Source of the DNA: Nitrospira sp.
Lineage (GTDB): Bacteria > Nitrospirota > Nitrospiria > Nitrospirales > Nitrospiraceae
Assembly: GCA_015709715.1 (NCBI GenBank)
Contig: CP054184.1
Coordinates: 1,783,001 to 1,847,000, forward strand
DNA: 64,000 nucleotides
Reading direction: 5' to 3'
Shown here: piece after piece, positions 18,159-26,886 of the stretch
Numbering within the stretch: the stretch's first letter is position 1
How the letters are laid out: each line of letters begins with the position of its first letter
The notes under the pieces: model-generated
The model's input: the letters and a program-made list of their open reading frames with translations, nothing else
Told to the model about the DNA's origin: nothing
The model's database searches: none
Program-made: the position numbers and the translations under genes

Positions 18159-18248
18159 CGACCCAGGCCGCCGCACCGCGCCTCATTCTTTCCCTCCTCG
18201 TCACGCGCCACCTTGACAAAGCCTGAAAGCGGGTGCTACCACGCTCCG

Positions 18249-19025
18249 ATGGTACGCGTGGAAAACAGCTCGCTCGCCGACCAGAAAACGGGATCGGCTC
18301 AGGCCGTCTCCACCTGGTCCGGCCAGGCTCGTGAACAGGCCGTGCAACGGATGTTCACAGCCATTGCGGGCGTCTACGACCTCAACAACACCCTGCTCAG
18401 TTTCGGCCTGCACCACCAGTGGAAACGGCTGACGGCCTCCTATGTGCCGACCGTCACACAGGGCCGGGCACTGGATATCGGCGCCGGCACCGCGGACTTG
18501 GCGCTCCTGATCGAGTCGAAAATGGGCGAGCGCGGCCACGTCGTTGCCTCCGATTTGAACCACGCCATGCTGGCCGAGGGCCTGCGGAAGGTGGCTAAAC
18601 GCGGCTTGCTCGCGCGCATCACCTGCCTCCAGGCCAATGCCGAACAGTTGGGATTCCCCAGCGATACGTTCCACGCCGTCACCACCGGATTCTGCATGCG
18701 CAACGTCGGGAACCTGTCCCAGGCGTTCCGCGAAATCCATCGCGTCCTCAAGCCGAACGGCCGGTTCGTCTGTCTGGAGTTTTCCCGCCCGCCCGCCGCC
18801 TGGCTGCGAACGCTCTATGATTGGTATTCCTTCCGGCTTTTACCCTGGATCGGCACCAAGGTCGCCAGAGACCGAACAGGCGTCTACGAGTACCTGCCGG
18901 CGTCGATCCGGACCTTCCCCGACCAGGAACGCTTGGCGACCATGATGCGCGAGGCAGGGTTTCGTCAGGTGGAATACCGGAACCTCACCGGCGGCATCGT
19001 CGCAATCCATATCGCCACGAAGTAA
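18249..19025 (+). CDS. ubiE: UbiE/MenG-type quinone C-methyltransferase
   Basis: 258 residues. A SAM-binding loop ALDIGAGTADLALL, FSAIAGVYDLNN-like MFTAIAGVYDLNNTLLS, and NGRFVCLEFSRPP are the classic signatures of the UbiE/COQ5/MenG family, which methylates demethylmenaquinone or a ubiquinone precursor using SAM. Menaquinone would be the expected substrate in a Nitrospira-like organism, so menG may be the better name. The ATG at 18249 is chosen; a TTG at 18213 would add 12 residues with no family support. A radical SAM gene starts 12 bp after the stop, suggesting an operon. Confidence 0.88.
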   Translation: MVRVENSSLADQKTGSAQAVSTWSGQAREQAVQRMFTAIAGVYDLNNTLLSFGLHHQWKRLTASYVPTVTQGRALDIGAGTADLALLIESKMGERGHVVASDLNHAMLAEGLRKVAKRGLLARITCLQANAEQLGFPSDTFHAVTTGFCMRNVGNLSQAFREIHRVLKPNGRFVCLEFSRPPAAWLRTLYDWYSFRLLPWIGTKVARDRTGVYEYLPASIRTFPDQERLATMMREAGFRQVEYRNLTGGIVAIHIATK

Positions 19026-19037
19026 GCACAGGATCGC

Positions 19038-20678
19038 ATGAACGCCATCCTTTATATTTTTCTGCCCTGCAAGAAGGTCTATCCGATCGGGGTGACCTAT
19101 TTGGCGGACTTCATCCATCGACGGAAGCCGGAGGTGCGCCAACGCATCCTGGACCTGTCCCTGTTTCCCGAATCACAACGCAGCCAAGCGGTCCGCGACG
19201 CCGCCCAGGAATTCAAACCGGATCTTGTCTGCTTTTCCTGGCGCGACATTCAGATCTTCTCGCCCCACGAGGGCGATTCGTCGTTGGAACATGCCTTCAA
19301 CTTTTACTTCGCCAGCAACCCGATCAAGCGGGTGATGGCCTCGGTCGAGGGGCTCAAGCAGCTCTACCGCTACTACAGCCACATCCGGGCAAACCTCTCC
19401 TATCCCTGGTTGATCCGAAAGGAGTTCCCCAAGGCGCAGATCATGATCGGCGGCGGCGCCTTCACGGCCTTCGCCGACCAGTTGATCGAGAAACTGCCGG
19501 AAGGGACGATCGGCATCCTCGGCGAAGGGGAAGATGCCATCCTGAAGGTGGTGAGCGGCGACTCCCTGACGGGAGAACGGTACATCATCCGCGAGGGCAA
19601 GAAGATCCTCAAGGGAGAACAGGGGGCGCCGGCCCTCCTGGACGCCTTGACGGTCGATCTGCCCTATCTCACGTCGATTTTCCCCCAATACGGCGCCTAT
19701 ATGGACGAGTCCATCGGTGTCCAGACCAAGCGCGGCTGCCCCTACGACTGCGCCTTTTGCCTCTATCCCTACATCGAAGGCAAGCGGGTGCGTTACCGGC
19801 CCCCGGCCATGGTCGTGAAAGACATTGCCCAGCATTATCACCAATGGGGCGCGCGCCGGTTCTGGTTCACCGATGCCCAGTTCATCACGGGAAAAGAGGC
19901 CTACCCGCAATGCACGGAGATTCTGGAGCGCATTCTGAGCGAGAAGCTGGAGATCGAGTGGTCGGGGTACATCCGCACATCGCTGATCACACCAGATCTG
20001 GCCAAGCTGATGGTGCGGTCGGGCGTAGGAGATTTAGAGGTCGCCATCACCTCCGGCTCGCAGGAAGTGCTGAATAACCTCCACATGGGCTTCAAACTCG
20101 AACGGCTCTATGACGGCTGCCGGTACTTGGCCGAAGCGGGCTTCAAGGGGAAGGTGATCCTGAATTACTCGCTGAATTCGCCGAAAGAAACGGAGGAAAG
20201 CCTGCTCCAGAGCGTCGAGTCCTACAAGAAGGTCGCGTCGATCCTGGGCGAAGAGCGGGTGTTCCCCCTGATGTTCTTCCTCGGCATCCAACCCAATACG
20301 GACTTGGAGCACCGTCTTCTGGAGGAGGGGTATCTCTCGGCGGGCTACAATCCGCTGATGCTCACACCCACCAGCATCCGAAAACTCCTCTATAACCCGG
20401 CACCGCTCAACAAGCTCATCGCCAAGGCCTGCCTCACGGCGTGGCAACGCAAAGAGGGCAGCCGCGATCCGCGGGCCTGGACCGGCTCGCTCTCCCAGAC
20501 CGCCACCGCCCAGGAACCGGCACCAGCCCATTACGCCGACGGCAACCTCATCCGTGGCGTGCACAACAACTCGGGACGCGATGCGCTGTTGACCCTGGAA
20601 GAGATTCTGCGAGCGCGGCGGCCTGCCCAACCGACCACCTCCGTGGCGGAAAAGACAGCAGTGAGTCCAACGAGTTAG
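19038..20678 (+). CDS. B12-binding-type radical SAM protein
   Basis: 546 residues. The N-terminal ~190 residues resemble a cobalamin-binding Rossmann domain (LADFIHRRKPEV, IMIGGGAFTAFADQLIEKL, GILGEGEDAILKV). The radical SAM core has the cluster motif GCPYDCAFC (Cys234, Cys238, Cys241). The C-terminal ~90 residues are low-complexity and proline/alanine-rich. It belongs to the large family that includes hopanoid and bacteriochlorophyll methylases and methylthiotransferase-like enzymes; the substrate is unknown. It follows the quinone methyltransferase by 12 bp and precedes the UspA fusion by 165 bp that carry a separate promoter. Confidence 0.85.
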   Translation: MNAILYIFLPCKKVYPIGVTYLADFIHRRKPEVRQRILDLSLFPESQRSQAVRDAAQEFKPDLVCFSWRDIQIFSPHEGDSSLEHAFNFYFASNPIKRVMASVEGLKQLYRYYSHIRANLSYPWLIRKEFPKAQIMIGGGAFTAFADQLIEKLPEGTIGILGEGEDAILKVVSGDSLTGERYIIREGKKILKGEQGAPALLDALTVDLPYLTSIFPQYGAYMDESIGVQTKRGCPYDCAFCLYPYIEGKRVRYRPPAMVVKDIAQHYHQWGARRFWFTDAQFITGKEAYPQCTEILERILSEKLEIEWSGYIRTSLITPDLAKLMVRSGVGDLEVAITSGSQEVLNNLHMGFKLERLYDGCRYLAEAGFKGKVILNYSLNSPKETEESLLQSVESYKKVASILGEERVFPLMFFLGIQPNTDLEHRLLEEGYLSAGYNPLMLTPTSIRKLLYNPAPLNKLIAKACLTAWQRKEGSRDPRAWTGSLSQTATAQEPAPAHYADGNLIRGVHNNSGRDALLTLEEILRARRPAQPTTSVAEKTAVSPTS

Positions 20679-20843: not shown

Positions 20844-22943
20844 ATGTACAAGACTATCTACATCCCGGTCGATAATTCCGACCATTCCAATACAGCCGTC
20901 GATGTCGGCGTGACGCTGGCCAAGACCTACGGTTCCAAAATCGTCGGAAGCCATGTGTACGCCGCCAAGATGCACGACAAACGCTTCAAGCAGATGGAAG
21001 CGGGGCTCCCCGAGGAATACCACGACGAAAAGGAACTCGACCGGCAACGTCAGATTCATGACTCCCTCATCACCCGCGGCCTCCAAATCATCACGGACTC
21101 CTACCTCGATTATGTCGACAAGAAGTGCTCCGAGGCCAACCTGCCCGTGGAACGCCGCTCGCTCGAAGGGCGTAATTGGAAGGTGCTTGCGGAAGACATC
21201 AATACCAACGCCTACGACCTCGTGATCATGGGGGCCTTGGGCGTCGGCGCAGTGAAGGACAGCGTCATCGGCAGCAACACCGAGCGGGTCCTGCGGCGCG
21301 TGCGTAATTCCGACATGTTGATCATCAAGCAGCCGAACCCGGTCGGCTCCGGCAAGATCGTGGTGGCCGTGGACGGCAGCCCCTACTCCTTCGGCGGACT
21401 CATGACCGGTTTGGCCCTGGGCAAGGCCTTCAACGTGCCGGTGGAAGTCATCTCCGCCTTCGATCCCTATTTCCACTATGCGGCGTTCCACAGCATCTCG
21501 GGCGTGCTCAATGAAGAGGCGGGGAAGGTCTTCCGCTTCAAGGAGCAGGAAAAGCTGCACGAAGAAGTCATCGACAGCGGCCTCGCCAAGATTTACCAGT
21601 CACATTTGGATATTTCCCGGGAAATCGCGCAGGCCGAACAGACCGACGTCAAGACGACCTTGCTCGACGGCAAAGCGTTCGAAAAGATCATTCAGTACGT
21701 GCGCAAGGAGACTCCTTGGCTCCTCATCGTGGGACGGATCGGCGTCCACAGCGACGAGGACATGGATATCGGCAGCAATACGGAAAATCTACTGCGCTCG
21801 GCTTCCTGCAACATCCTGGTCTCGAACCGGAAGTATGTGCCGCCCATCGACACTCAGGCCGAATACACCATCGCCTGGACCGAAGAGGCCTTGCGCCGCA
21901 TGGAAAAGATCCCTGTGTTCGCTCGCGGGGTCGCTAAAACCGCCATCCACCGCTATGCCATCGAGAAGGGCCACACGATCATCAGCAATACGGTGGTGGA
22001 TGCCGCCGTCGGCCACATCCTCCCCAAGGGCGCCATGGATGCGATGCGCGCGTTGGGCGGCAATCTGGATGCCGCCGGGATCGATCGCGACAAAATGCAA
22101 GCCGACGATTCGGTCGCCAAGGATTTGATGGGCTCAACCCTGAGCGGCATGATGACGCAGGTGGTCGAAGAGAAGCCGGCCCCGACGTCCACGACGCAGG
22201 CCTATTTGGATCGCATGAGCCAGAACTACTTCGTCTGCGACGGCTGCGGCTACATCGGCAAGGGCGACACGCCGGTCAAATGTCCCGTCTGTAGTGCCGA
22301 AGGAGACCGTTTCAAGCAGGTCGACAAGACCATCTTCGAAGCGGCGGCCAAGGCCGAAGGCGGACTCGAAACAGATGTGGCGTACGATGACATCCCGATG
22401 CAGTGGACCAAGGATGCCAAGGAAGCGATCCGCGCCGTGCCGGCAGGGTTCCAGCGGCGACGCGCCAAGGCCAAGATCGAAAAAAGCGCCCGCAAACTGG
22501 GCATGACGACGATTACCCTCGAATACGCCGGCCCCATGATTCGCGAAGCGGCCGCCGAGGATTACACCCCGATCTTTGCGAACAAGGGAACCGGTACCGC
22601 ACCGCAGGCGGAAGCGGCCATCTCGAACGGAACCGAGTCCCACGCCGCCAACGGCGGCGTCGAAGAGCCGCAGACCGCACAGGCGAATCCCTCACCCTAT
22701 ACCTGGACGGCGGATGCCCAGGCGCGGCTGGAGCGGGCTCCGGAAGGGTTCATGCGCGACTGCACCAAGGCTCTCATCGAAAAACATGCGGACAAAATCG
22801 GCGTCACTGTCATTACGCTGGAAGTGGCGACCGAGGGCATCGAGCAGGCCAAGGGGTATATGGCCGATGCGATGAAGACCGGCAATCTGAAGGACATGAT
22901 TGCCAACCTGACCGGCTCCTCCAAAACCGGGGCGAGCCGCTAA
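20844..22943 (+). CDS. Tandem UspA–PCP_red–rubredoxin–PCP_red–PCP_red fusion protein
   Basis: 699 residues, soluble. Two universal stress protein domains come first (~1–155 and ~165–335), each with a UspA nucleotide motif (MGALGVGAVKDSVIGSN; VGRIGVHSDEDMDIGSN). The C-terminal half has four small modules. One is a PCP_red-like unit at ~341–385 (WTEEALRRMEKIPVFARG). Next is a rubredoxin-like zinc/iron knuckle at ~462–492 (FVCDGCGYIG, then VKCPVC). Two more PCP_red units follow at ~519–565 (WTKDAKEAIRAVPAGF) and ~620–665 (WTADAQARLERAPEGF). PCP_red is the C-terminal domain of the light-independent protochlorophyllide reductase B subunit. The stop overlaps the next gene's ATG by one base (TAATG). 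A redox or tetrapyrrole-linked stress role is inferred; nothing proves it. Confidence 0.85.
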   Translation: MYKTIYIPVDNSDHSNTAVDVGVTLAKTYGSKIVGSHVYAAKMHDKRFKQMEAGLPEEYHDEKELDRQRQIHDSLITRGLQIITDSYLDYVDKKCSEANLPVERRSLEGRNWKVLAEDINTNAYDLVIMGALGVGAVKDSVIGSNTERVLRRVRNSDMLIIKQPNPVGSGKIVVAVDGSPYSFGGLMTGLALGKAFNVPVEVISAFDPYFHYAAFHSISGVLNEEAGKVFRFKEQEKLHEEVIDSGLAKIYQSHLDISREIAQAEQTDVKTTLLDGKAFEKIIQYVRKETPWLLIVGRIGVHSDEDMDIGSNTENLLRSASCNILVSNRKYVPPIDTQAEYTIAWTEEALRRMEKIPVFARGVAKTAIHRYAIEKGHTIISNTVVDAAVGHILPKGAMDAMRALGGNLDAAGIDRDKMQADDSVAKDLMGSTLSGMMTQVVEEKPAPTSTTQAYLDRMSQNYFVCDGCGYIGKGDTPVKCPVCSAEGDRFKQVDKTIFEAAAKAEGGLETDVAYDDIPMQWTKDAKEAIRAVPAGFQRRRAKAKIEKSARKLGMTTITLEYAGPMIREAAAEDYTPIFANKGTGTAPQAEAAISNGTESHAANGGVEEPQTAQANPSPYTWTADAQARLERAPEGFMRDCTKALIEKHADKIGVTVITLEVATEGIEQAKGYMADAMKTGNLKDMIANLTGSSKTGASR

Positions 22944-24346
22944 TGGGAAAATCATTGCCGATCCTCAACTTTCCTCCGCTGGGAGGAAAGTTCGAGGCGC
23001 TTCAACAGCAGATCAGTCAATTTTTCACGCCGACATCACCCTCGGCCGGGCCGTACGACGGCCGGACCGTGGATGACTTCAAGCCCTATCTCATCGCCTT
23101 GAACCTCACCAAACGGTGCAACCTCAAGTGCGATCACTGTTATCTCGATGCCACAACAAAAGCGGGCGGCGGAACCGATGAGCTGAGCACCGAGGAATGC
23201 TTCCGGCTGATCGATCAGATTGCCGAGGTGAACAAGGGTTGCCTGCTGGTGATCACCGGCGGCGAGCCGCTTGTCCGACCCGACATCCTCGACATTGCTC
23301 GGCATGCGGTAGCCCTTGGATTCATCGTCGTGTTCGGCACCAACGGCATGCTGATCAACGACCGGATGGCCAAGACCCTGGTCGAGATCGGCGTCATGGG
23401 CGTCGGCATCAGTATCGACTCGCTGGATCCGGAGAAACACGACCGATTTCGTGGGGTGCCCGGCGCCTTTGCCAGCGCCTTGGCCGGGATCGAAGCCTGC
23501 AAGCGTAACGGGCTCCAGTTTCAGGTTCACTTCAGCGCCCAGCCGATGAACTACCAGGAACTGCCTGCGGTTGTGGAGTGGGCCCACAATCTCGGTGCGC
23601 GCGTGCTGAACGTGTTTTTCATGGTCTGTACCGGCCGCGGCGAAGAGTTGACCGACATCACCCCCCAGCAATATGAAGAGGTCTTGGGCTATCTGGTGGA
23701 CTGCCAGGACCGCTACAAGGACATGTTGGTGCGGGCCCGTTGCGCCCCGCATTTCAAACGGCTGGCCTATGAAAAGGACCCCAATTCGCCCATCACCAAG
23801 GCCACCGGTTACATGGGGGGTGGCTGCTTGGCCGGCACGAATTACGCGCGGGTCACGCCGAACGGTGAACTCACCCCTTGTCCCTATATGCCGCTCTCGG
23901 CCGGCAACGTACGCGAGACGAGCTTTGTGGACCTATGGGAGCGGTCGGATATTTTCAACTCGTTCCGCTACCCTCAATTGAAGGGGAAGTGCGGCGATTG
24001 CGAGTATACCGATATTTGCGGCGGCTGCCGGGCCAGGCCTTACGTAGACCACGGTGATTGGCTCGACGAAGACCAGTGGTGCCTTTACACGCCGAAGGGT
24101 GGCGACAAGATCCAAGTGGCCTTCAATACGCCCGAAGAGGTGGAGGTGGCGTGGGATGAAGCGTCACAACTTCGCCTGAGCCGCATCCCCTATTTTCTCC
24201 GTGCCATGGTCAAGAAGGGCGTGGAGCGCCACGCCCGAGAGAACGGCGTCGAACTGATCACTGTGGGCTTGATGGAGGAACTCCGAAAGAAGCGGTTCGG
24301 TAACGATGCCCCGGTCTTCAACTTCGACATGAAAGGCAAGGACTAG
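22943..24346 (+). CDS. NirJ/AhbC-like radical SAM–SPASM protein with C-terminal PCP_red domain
   Basis: 467 residues. The cluster motif is CNLKCDHCY (Cys59, Cys63, Cys66). The core (ITGGEPLVRPDI, GVGISIDSLDPEKHDRFRG) and the Cys-rich C-terminal auxiliary cluster region (GGGCLAGTNYARVTPNGE, CGDCEYTDICGGCRARPY) match the SPASM-type family. That family includes NirJ (heme d1) and AhbC/AhbD (alternative heme synthesis). Residues ~400–447 (WDEASQLRLSRIPYFLRA, then ENGVELITVGLMEEL) form a fourth PCP_red unit. Coupling by a one-base overlap to the UspA fusion, which has the same module, suggests the two proteins work together. Tetrapyrrole modification is a reasonable guess; other SPASM substrates such as peptides are possible. 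Confidence 0.84.
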   Translation: MGKSLPILNFPPLGGKFEALQQQISQFFTPTSPSAGPYDGRTVDDFKPYLIALNLTKRCNLKCDHCYLDATTKAGGGTDELSTEECFRLIDQIAEVNKGCLLVITGGEPLVRPDILDIARHAVALGFIVVFGTNGMLINDRMAKTLVEIGVMGVGISIDSLDPEKHDRFRGVPGAFASALAGIEACKRNGLQFQVHFSAQPMNYQELPAVVEWAHNLGARVLNVFFMVCTGRGEELTDITPQQYEEVLGYLVDCQDRYKDMLVRARCAPHFKRLAYEKDPNSPITKATGYMGGGCLAGTNYARVTPNGELTPCPYMPLSAGNVRETSFVDLWERSDIFNSFRYPQLKGKCGDCEYTDICGGCRARPYVDHGDWLDEDQWCLYTPKGGDKIQVAFNTPEEVEVAWDEASQLRLSRIPYFLRAMVKKGVERHARENGVELITVGLMEELRKKRFGNDAPVFNFDMKGKD

Positions 24347-24362
24347 GGCCTGATCTTCGACA

Positions 24363-24878
24363 ATGGATTCCGTACAAAGCATCTTCCTCGATCTGAATCA
24401 GCTCATTCCGATCGTCAACCATTGGTTTCATCTCCTGTCGGCCGTCATCTGGATCGGCGGGCTGGCCTTCCTCGTCATGGCCGTGACACCGGGACTGCGG
24501 GACGGCGGCGTTCCCAAAGAATACATCCGCCCCATCACGGAAGCGTTCTACCGGCATTACAAACGGGTGGCCGGTATTCTCCTCGTGGTACTGCTCTTCA
24601 CAGGCGGCGTCAATGTGCATTATGTAAACCAAATTCTCACGTCTCAGACCGGTCAGGGATTACAACATCACTCTAAGTACCTGTGGATCTTCTGCATCAA
24701 GCTCGTCTTGGTATTGGGCCTCCTCACCCTCTTCCTGTACAGCGTCATCTTCAAGTCGGACGCGGAGGAGGAAGAAGAGGGGGACCTTCACGAATCGATT
24801 CCCTTTCAACGGGCCGCGTTATGGATGGGCTTTTTCATCATCCTCTGCGCCGCCGCCATGAAGCATCTGCATCAGTAG
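24363..24878 (+). CDS. CopD/HemJ-like four-helix membrane protein
   Basis: 171 residues with four hydrophobic helices. The first helix, HWFHLLSAVIWIGGLAFLVM, carries His residues placed as in the CopD and HemJ families, where such histidines bind heme or copper. A charged loop (DAEEEEEGDL) lies before the last helix. It starts 16 bp after the radical SAM gene and is probably cotranscribed. HemJ is a protoporphyrinogen oxidase, which would fit tetrapyrrole chemistry next door, but CopD-type copper proteins look equally similar by eye. Confidence 0.72.
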   Translation: MDSVQSIFLDLNQLIPIVNHWFHLLSAVIWIGGLAFLVMAVTPGLRDGGVPKEYIRPITEAFYRHYKRVAGILLVVLLFTGGVNVHYVNQILTSQTGQGLQHHSKYLWIFCIKLVLVLGLLTLFLYSVIFKSDAEEEEEGDLHESIPFQRAALWMGFFIILCAAAMKHLHQ

Positions 24879-25110: not shown

Positions 25111-26886
25111 ATGCCGTTCCACCACACTCGCCTGCTGATCGTTTCCGGATTGTTGATGGCCCTGTCCACGATCCCTTGCCGGGCCATGGAGCCGGCTGCT
25201 TCACAAGCCCCACCGCTTCGCATAGTGGGAAAGCTCGACCAGGATCACCCACGCTGGTATCACGCGTCAGCCGGAACCCAACTCATGCCCTATGACTGGT
25301 TCGTGGCCCTCTTGGATAGCACGTCGAAAGAGTTCGAAAAGGCAGGCATCCTCGTCGACTCCATCCATCCGGACCGCCTGCCGGTCGGCATGTCCGAGCC
25401 ACAGGCCGGAGCCCCATCGTCATCCCCCACCGGAATGAATTGCGCGTTCTGCCATACGACCGAATTCACATACGGGAACAAGGTATTTCGCATCGAAGGA
25501 GGTCCTTCGCTGCAATATAATCAACGATTCCTCGGCGTCCTCATTAAAGCGCTCCGGGGCCTCGTTCTGCCGGATCTCCCCACTCTCCTAAAGAGCATTC
25601 AAGCCGAACGGCCTCTTGAACCCTTCAAGACCTTCGCAACCAAGGTGCTGGAGCGTCGGCAAGAGGGTTCGAGCATTTCCAGCCTCAGCAAATTGGCCGG
25701 TGACGTGGACGCCTATAGCCGGTCCCTCGTCACCCGAGGCGCAATGGATAGCTCGCCCGAATGGTGGGGGCCCGGTCGGTTCGATGCACTGGGGCGCGGT
25801 GGCAATACGGTCTTTGGTCCGCTCAATCCGGACAACCTCAGACCCGCCAACGCGCCCGTGAGCATTCCACCGCTGTGGGGCGTCTGGGCCTATGACTGGG
25901 TGCAGTGGTCGGGATCGATCCAGCACCCCTTGGCCAGAAATGTGGCGCAGGTCATCGGCGTGGGCGCCAACCTGTTTGCCTGGACGAAAAAACCGCCGCT
26001 CGGTCCCATGGATGACGATCAAAAGTTCCGCTCATCCGTGGATTTCAAGGCACTGGAGGAATTGGAAGGCCTCGCAGGACGGCTGCAACCGCCGCGCTGG
26101 CCGGAGGAGTTCCCCGCCATCGACCGCAGCCTCGCCGCTCGAGGCAGGGACCTCTACCACGGCAACAAGGCCAAAGGGATTCCGAATCTCTGCGCCCACT
26201 GCCATGTCGCTCGGCATCTCGAAAACAGAGGCGAGTACGGGCCCGGCCTGCAGGTCACCATGATCCCTCAGAAGGAAGTGGGGACCGACCCACTCTATCT
26301 GGAAAGCTTTTCGCGCCGCACGGTCGACACGGGCCCGTTAGGGCGCGGAAGACTGTCCGCCAAGGATGCCTCACAATACGTTACCACCGAGCTCCTGGCT
26401 CGGAGTTCTGCCGCGCAGACAGAAGACGCTGCCAAGCCGAACGAATGGCGGGATTGGCCACAATACATCGCACGACCCCACCTGGCGGTTTGGGCCACCG
26501 CGCCGTTTTTGCACAATGGATCCGTTCCCAACCTCTATGAGCTGTTGTCGCCGGTGAGCGAGCGGCACCGCTGCTTCGCCCTCAGCCCCAGGATGGAGTT
26601 CGACCCCAAGCACGTCGGCTATTCCATCACAGAGTGCAACGCTGAATTACCCCAGGACCGGGTCTGGTTCAAATTCGACACCGCGTGGCCCGGCAACGGA
26701 AACAGAGGCCATGAATTCGCCGATCTCCCGGGGTGCGGAGGCCCGGCCGAAAACGGCCTGCTTGGCTGTGGAATTCCGCCTGCTGATCGACTCGCCATTA
26801 TCGAATATTTGAAGACCTGCGATCTCGATCGACGGGTAATCCCCGGCGCACCGGCCTGTCATGATTTGGGCGAGGTGACACCGTAG
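25111..26886 (+). CDS. RoxA-like di-heme cytochrome c (MauG/peroxidase superfamily)
   Basis: 591 residues, with a signal peptide (LLIVSGLLMALSTIPCRA, cleavage near 25). Two heme c motifs are present: CAFCH (111–115) and CAHCH (361–365). The late motif ATAPFLHNGSVPNLYELL is typical of RoxA-type extracellular di-heme oxygenases and related di-heme peroxidases. Length and heme spacing fit RoxA/RoxB proteins, which cleave polyisoprenoid double bonds with O2. A lipid or terpenoid substrate is possible but unproven. Excellent ribosome site AAGGAGG at 25095–25101. Expression appears controlled by a sigma-54 promoter and a palindromic activator site. Confidence 0.84.
   Translation: MPFHHTRLLIVSGLLMALSTIPCRAMEPAASQAPPLRIVGKLDQDHPRWYHASAGTQLMPYDWFVALLDSTSKEFEKAGILVDSIHPDRLPVGMSEPQAGAPSSSPTGMNCAFCHTTEFTYGNKVFRIEGGPSLQYNQRFLGVLIKALRGLVLPDLPTLLKSIQAERPLEPFKTFATKVLERRQEGSSISSLSKLAGDVDAYSRSLVTRGAMDSSPEWWGPGRFDALGRGGNTVFGPLNPDNLRPANAPVSIPPLWGVWAYDWVQWSGSIQHPLARNVAQVIGVGANLFAWTKKPPLGPMDDDQKFRSSVDFKALEELEGLAGRLQPPRWPEEFPAIDRSLAARGRDLYHGNKAKGIPNLCAHCHVARHLENRGEYGPGLQVTMIPQKEVGTDPLYLESFSRRTVDTGPLGRGRLSAKDASQYVTTELLARSSAAQTEDAAKPNEWRDWPQYIARPHLAVWATAPFLHNGSVPNLYELLSPVSERHRCFALSPRMEFDPKHVGYSITECNAELPQDRVWFKFDTAWPGNGNRGHEFADLPGCGGPAENGLLGCGIPPADRLAIIEYLKTCDLDRRVIPGAPACHDLGEVTP

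Follow-up and report, generated by a model that had tools for sequence, protein, structure and literature searches.

A PCP_red-bearing Usp–radical SAM gene pair of Nitrospira tracks bd-like oxidases and may serve tetrapyrrole-cofactor maturation

In a 64,000-nucleotide stretch of a complete, 4.16 Mb Nitrospira genome (assembly GCA_015709715.1, contig CP054184.1, positions 1,783,001 to 1,847,000; hereafter the window), two coupled genes on the forward strand encode a 699-residue protein that joins universal stress protein (Usp) domains to PCP_red modules, and a 467-residue radical SAM-SPASM protein that ends in a further PCP_red module. We found that this pair accompanies, almost without exception, a family of cytochrome bd-like oxidases, by which we mean a CydA-like protein together with cytochromes of the c type and a heme b subunit of the ethylbenzene-dehydrogenase type (EB_dh), as in the alt-NxrC cluster of nitrite oxidisers. 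The domains, the coupling of the genes, the distinct clade of the enzyme, the near-perfect co-occurrence and the repeated co-localisation with bd-like complexes are observed directly, and a functional coupling of the pair to these complexes is highly probable. On its nature our belief and our doubt are evenly balanced: the pair may be a dedicated module for the biogenesis or maturation of a tetrapyrrole cofactor of the bd-like family, including the mechanism and domain roles proposed below. That a conserved accessory pair follows bd-like oxidases in about ten phyla suggests that these complexes require some special cofactor or modification, and the orphan PCP_red module gains a non-photosynthetic context.

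Association with bd-like oxidases

We profiled 198 Nitrospirota genomes with a model built from CydA-like proteins (threshold E <= 1e-30). The Usp-PCP gene and the CydA-like gene each occur in 84 genomes: 82 have both, two have only Usp, two have only the CydA-like gene and 112 have neither. The two Usp-only genomes (G042, G048) are fragmented assemblies, and one of the CydA-like-only genomes (G187) does carry the radical SAM-PCP gene. The association persists within Nitrospirota outside the pair's own class, with 19 genomes having both, two only Usp, none only the CydA-like gene and 112 neither. Five families (f19, f27, f28, f29, f32) each mix genomes that have both with genomes that have neither, and the same is seen within single genera (g78, g67, g88). 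Among genomes reached through a cross-phylum scan, a CydA-like gene was found in 28 of 29 carriers and in 0 of 20 control genomes with AhbD only. The nominal Fisher P values, about 1e-50, 4e-21 and 7e-13, ignore relatedness and are indicative only.

The cross-phylum scan, for which the radical SAM protein served as query, yielded 80 loci, of which about 45 have PCP_red. The hosts were Nitrospina, Brocadia, Anammoxibacter, Poribacteria, Gemmatimonadota, Acidobacteriota (Vicinamibacteraceae), Alpha-, Beta- and Gammaproteobacteria, Thermodesulfobacteriota and Bacteroidota. In 51 loci a tandem-Usp gene adjoins the radical SAM gene on the same strand, with a gap of -414 to +246 bp as called; the gene order noticed in a sequence-only reading of this DNA is conserved far beyond the genus. 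That Usp protein was found in 0 of 32 loci in the DNA around AhbD/NirJ2-type enzymes lacking PCP_red. Three loci scored as having no PCP_red (L149, L158, L165) probably owe this to the threshold or to a truncated contig. At closer range, three named Nitrospira contigs (L116, L120, L121) and genus-level relatives are about 92-95% identical to both proteins, and across the order the identity of the Usp protein is 81-95%.

Departures from the standard arrangement were also seen. In a family of the same order (f4; L103, L105) the pair is split, with the Usp gene staying by its CopD-like neighbour and the radical SAM-PCP gene not adjoining. Brocadia-type anammox bacteria (L123, L126, L129) have a radical SAM protein with three PCP_red copies whose gene does not lie next to Usp and is followed by a histidine-kinase-like gene and a gene for a product of about 121 residues.

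Outside the genus, the neighbourhoods of the pair recurrently hold the CydA-like protein, c-type cytochromes and the EB_dh subunit. In Thermodesulfobacteriota (L111) the order is Usp, radical SAM, CydA-like, two cytochromes c, chaperone, NxrA-like and NxrB-like, with close equivalents in Nitrospirota (L098-type operons). In Anammoxibacter (L132) it is CydA-like, two cytochromes c, EB_dh, two cytochromes c, Usp and radical SAM, and in Gemmatimonadota (L144) Usp, radical SAM and CydA-like. The pair and CydA-like genes also co-localise in Alpha-, Beta- and Gammaproteobacteria and in Bacteroidota, and a single 33 kb contig of genome G160 gathers Usp, radical SAM and CopD-like genes, two more PCP_red proteins, Mrp, an EB_dh-cytochrome c-CydA-like cluster and HemY. 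In the source genome, a protein with two PCP_red copies (L011, 7358-7849) lies beside the bd-like oxidase genes, just upstream of two CydA-like genes and an EB_dh cluster of the alt-NxrC type, an arrangement that matches the description of bd-like_3, bd-like_4 and alt_NxrC_2 in N. moscoviensis. These genes lie outside the window, and the sequence-only reading missed this partner, the CydA-like complex, which explains the distribution of the pair.

Nitrite oxidoreductase (NXR) is a possible primary partner, as suggested by the L098-type operons and by the nitrite-oxidising and anammox hosts, but the carriers include Gemmatimonadota, Poribacteria and sulfur-oxidising Gammaproteobacteria.

Domains and relatives of the two proteins

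Much of what had been claimed about the pair from the DNA letters was borne out: four PCP_red modules, two Usp domains, a NirJ-like radical SAM-SPASM partner and a one-base overlap of the genes. At the junction (cgcTAATGgg) the stop codon TAA (22941-22943) and the start codon ATG (22943-22945) have position 22943 in common.

The Usp-PCP_red protein (20844-22943), delineated from Pfam, its translation, its relatives and its tandem-Usp fold, reads from its N terminus as two Usp domains of the ATP-binding type, PCP_red, a rubredoxin-type knuckle and two more PCP_red copies. The Usp family PF00582 matches with 113.6 bits over two stretches (threshold 24 bits). Domain 1 (residues 1-155; 20844-21308) carries the motif GALGVGAVKDSVIGS, which as read from the sequence fits G-2x-G-9x-G(S/T); domain 2 (approximately residues 172-328; 21357-21827), whose bounds are taken from the homologue L080, carries GRIGVHSDEDMDIGS. 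The AlphaFold model (predicted local distance difference test, pLDDT, 77; predicted template modelling score, pTM, 0.51), which is reliable at domain level only, has tandem Usp proteins among its matches, for instance TTHA0350 with bound ATP. The knuckle (residues 463-491; 22230-22316) has the predicted CxxC...CxxC pattern; its profile match is borderline, with PF21349 giving 25.5 bits here against a cut-off of 26.5 and 51.5 bits in L080, and some homologues of the Usp protein lack it.

The radical SAM-SPASM-PCP_red protein (22943-24346) is placed by Pfam, NCBIfam, phylogeny and its AlphaFold model as NirJ2/AhbD-related, in a clade of its own. The radical SAM core (23102-23521; PF04055, 87.9 bits) and the SPASM auxiliary cluster region (23825-24004; PF13186, 39.7 bits) both score above cut-off. 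Their cysteines are invariant in 33 aligned sequences, as expected of superfamily members: C59-x3-C63-x2-C66 in the core, and C295, C313, C350, C353, C359, C362 and C380 in the SPASM region, the last just beyond the Pfam match. The best NCBIfam models are NirJ2 (TIGR04055, 322 bits) and AhbD (TIGR04545, 318.5 bits), both under their 500-bit cut-offs; NirJ itself (TIGR04051) reaches 181 bits against 515, and the model of the peptide maturase PqqE 112 bits, about a third of the NirJ2 and AhbD scores. In the tree, the radical SAM-PCP proteins form one clade (Shimodaira–Hasegawa-like approximate likelihood ratio test, SH-aLRT, 99) beside AhbD/NirJ2, separate from an AhbD-like clade (SH-aLRT 100) and an AhbC-like clade, which are putatively so named from size and gene pairing. 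Only two members have no detected PCP_red, L165 and L149, the latter being truncated at the end of its contig. Movement of the gene between lineages is probable, since the version in basal families of the class (f7, f10, f11) groups with those of Rokubacteria and Poribacteria. The AlphaFold model (pLDDT 83.4, pTM 0.81) shows the SPASM fold followed by PCP_red as a short helix, a long helix, a strand and a helix.

All four PCP_red segments of the pair exceed the curated PF08369 cut-off of 32.5 bits, with 39.8-54.4 bits (whole-genome E values of 7e-14 to 2e-9). Three lie in the Usp protein (residues 345-388, 21876-22007, 54.3 bits; 22404-22523, 41.8 bits; 22704-22829, 39.8 bits) and the fourth is C-terminal in the enzyme (residues 404-448; 24152-24286, 54.4 bits). 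Genome-wide, the search found 12 copies in five proteins, none of which is BchB, and the domain is present in 41 of 41 sampled genomes of the order, so its occurrence is not due to chance. W, A, P, F, R, E and G are conserved among 310 copies. A heme-ligating role for the module was dropped, as no conserved His or Cys was found in these copies; the pattern fits a hydrophobic, arginine-bearing recognition module better than a heme ligand.

Two other PCP_red proteins of the source genome stand apart from the pair. One (L009, 6443-7438) consists almost entirely of four modules and adjoins an IHF-type gene; in relatives from the class (L079-L082) its counterpart comes directly after the radical SAM-PCP gene. 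The other (L010, 7410-8372) has two copies, a CxxC motif like that of a zinc ribbon near its N terminus and a CPF motif (GGCPFSAM) resembling heme-regulatory motifs, and adjoins an Mrp/ApbC ATPase gene in a sulfate-assimilation region. The same pairing with Mrp is seen again at loci of Poribacteria, Gemmatimonadota and Bacteroidota (L127, L144, L158).

Downstream of the pair, a small membrane protein (24363-24878, forward strand) had been described as CopD/HemJ-like. The CopD likeness is below the Pfam threshold, PF05425 giving 26.3 bits against a cut-off of 32.1, and no HemJ model matched the product; a WxHL motif (H23) and a lysine (K113) are invariant in nine relatives. As a conserved neighbour the gene is mostly confined to the class Nitrospiria, and it does not belong to the core of the system. 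Beyond it, at 25111-26886, a protein of the RoxA-like/di-heme cytochrome c peroxidase family (NF040606, 368 bits) occupies this spot in only part of the genus. Upstream (18213-20678) lie the methyl-plastoquinone methyltransferase MpqE (414 bits, above cut-off) and an slr0320-type B12-binding radical SAM protein, which may be part of methyl-plastoquinone synthesis. Nitrospiraceae and another family of the order, f2, have these two genes ahead of the pair; in f3 and f4 they were not seen there.

A tetrapyrrole role and its alternatives

A tetrapyrrole role is favoured because NirJ2 and AhbD are the best models for the enzyme and HemY follows or adjoins the pair: in about ten loci of Proteobacteria, the gene immediately after that of the radical SAM protein encodes a HemY homologue (that of L141, the only one tested, passes the TIGR00562 cut-off for protoporphyrinogen oxidase), and a HemY-like gene of the amine-oxidase fold lies beside the pair in a Nitrospirota locus (L090). 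We envision that the radical SAM-SPASM enzyme, a member of the NirJ/AhbD tetrapyrrole group, would remodel the side chains of heme or of a porphyrin precursor to give a non-standard heme for the bd-like complex, while its PCP_red tail, which BchB also has, would help to hold the macrocycle or pass it on. As for the tandem-Usp protein, it would bind ATP and act as a carrier or gate, with the rubredoxin knuckle as an electron donor or redox switch. The tetrapyrrole substrate, the modified-heme product and the role of each domain are what we infer. By analogy, one could go further and suppose that bd-like complexes of nitrite oxidisers, anammox bacteria and others contain a modified heme new to description, the product of a dedicated radical SAM pathway that would comprise the Usp carrier, the radical SAM-PCP enzyme, in some cases HemY, and additional helper proteins with PCP_red; this is a tentative extension, against which we would rather wager.

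Several points weigh against the proposed tetrapyrrole-cofactor module. The sequence results give no demonstration of a tetrapyrrole substrate, PCP_red has no conserved metal ligand, and the nearest solved folds are those of the peptide-modifying SPASM enzymes PqqE, SkfB and SuiB, with NirJ and AhbD structures absent among the matches listed. The pair and the bd-like genes lie far apart in Nitrospira, and in Nitrospina, Brocadia and some Poribacteria loci no Usp gene was found in the DNA surrounding the radical SAM gene. The co-occurrence counts carry no species-tree correction, most of the AhbD-only controls are anaerobes, and a common niche, such as micro-oxic or nitrite respiration, could lie behind the co-occurrence. 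NXR may be an alternative correlate.

Could the enzyme simply make ordinary heme b, replacing a standard step non-orthologously, as HemN would or, on coproheme, as AhbD or ChdC would? Nitrospira itself raises the question: HemF and a true HemN were not found there (only HemW-level matches, 150 bits against a cut-off of 325), nor was any AhbD match other than the pair's own enzyme, which is itself AhbD-like and has HemY next to it in Proteobacteria. We nonetheless regard this as improbable. With HemY and HemH genes side by side and three ChdC/Cld-family genes in the source genome, the coproporphyrin-dependent route in Nitrospira looks complete. Proteobacterial carriers keep the pair although they have HemN, and most of them HemF and HemH as well, and Nitrospirota carriers of families f27, f28 and f32 also have AhbD. 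On these grounds, a general role in heme b synthesis appears unlikely, and the distribution of the pair tracks bd-like oxidases rather than the need for heme b. If the enzyme were instead a SPASM-type peptide maturase, it would modify a side chain in a partner protein or in one of the subunits of the bd-like complex, which is compatible with the bd-like link all the same. The SPASM architecture and the nearest solved folds speak for it, although the structure comparison did not discriminate peptide from tetrapyrrole chemistry. We hold this to be unlikely: the NirJ2 and AhbD models outscore PqqE about threefold, HemY adjacency and the BchB-type module indicate a tetrapyrrole, and a small precursor-peptide gene was not noticed next to the pair, though no systematic search was made.

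Regulation by stress or oxygen would dispense with a cofactor altogether, Usp controlling bd-like operons and the shared distribution reflecting only a micro-oxic lifestyle. In Nitrospira marina, UspA proteins beside induced operons rise at low O2 (PMC8115632), though they were not shown to be the product of this gene, and a Crp/FNR-type regulator adjoins the L098 operon. However, such control leaves unexplained the full invariant set of radical SAM and SPASM cysteines, the strong conservation of Usp across the order and the linkage to HemY, and it seems quite unlikely. The sequence-only reading had proposed a redox or siroheme system in which PCP_red docks the two proteins to each other. In most lineages the module does occur in the two proteins alike, and other proteins encoded nearby have it too. 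Yet six loci (L098, L099, L101, L109, L111, L156) keep the coupling to the radical SAM gene unchanged with a Usp partner that lacks PCP_red. In lineages with the NXR-like operon, where Usp is devoid of it, PCP_red cannot be what partners the proteins; siroheme-pathway genes were not noticed recurrently beside the pair. Docking, thus weakened, is distinctly improbable, while the link to tetrapyrroles that the same reading suggested is now probable.

Two further observations concern heme routes in other hosts. In two distant Nitrospirota genomes, AhbD-like, HemH and HemY genes are clustered (G146:C2:39489-43937 and G176:C86:14939-20467), and AhbD may act there as coproheme decarboxylase in a coproporphyrin-type route. 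In two Brocadia genomes and Anammoxibacter, matches above cut-off to HemF, HemN, HemH, HemY and ChdC were not found.

Comparison with known systems

The PCP_red module is shared with BchB/ChlB of the dark-operative protochlorophyllide reductase, in which it forms the C-terminal segment of about 45 residues (TIGR01278 positions 455-507 aligned). The pair has no nitrogenase-like domain and its modules are fused to Usp and radical SAM domains instead; in fact TIGR01278 matches through its C-terminal segment only (68.8 bits against a cut-off of 490), so the proteins are not members of BchB. The Usp protein has the tandem fold and ATP-binding motifs of TTHA0350, Rv2623 and UspE, to which its own family adds invariant histidines (H37, H44, H72, H211, H239, H302), the rubredoxin knuckle and the PCP_red tails; its invariant histidines and acidic residues lie outside the ATP motifs. 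AhbD, the heme b synthase, and NirJ2 are likewise radical SAM-SPASM enzymes and the top sequence models, but the Nitrospira enzyme differs from them by its scores below cut-off, its separate clade, its extra C-terminal PCP_red, its Usp partner and its coexistence with AhbD in several genomes.

Our working analogy is NirJ of the heme d1 pathway, from the same superfamily group: a dedicated radical SAM enzyme makes a special tetrapyrrole for one respiratory enzyme. No link of the pair to a nir operon or to cd1 nitrite reductase was seen; the modified-heme pathway tentatively supposed above would be to the bd-like complex what NirJ and heme d1 are to cd1 nitrite reductase. The bd-like oxidase has been called enigmatic in function (PMC3578206), one such cluster ranks among the 40 genes with the strongest transcription in nitrite-oxidising N. 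moscoviensis (PMC6606698), and similar proteins have been invoked for manganese oxidisers (PMC9040806); in N. moscoviensis the bd-like proteins have been proposed as terminal oxidase or as membrane link of NXR. In the literature searched, which did not include most subscription papers, work on PCP_red, on AhbD/NirJ with Nitrospira and on radical SAM enzymes with bd-like oxidases yielded no earlier report. The bd-like oxidase/alt-NxrC cluster of Nitrospira, Nitrospina and anammox bacteria, described without this accessory pair (PMC3578206, PMC6606698), is the complex that the pair tracks and often adjoins.

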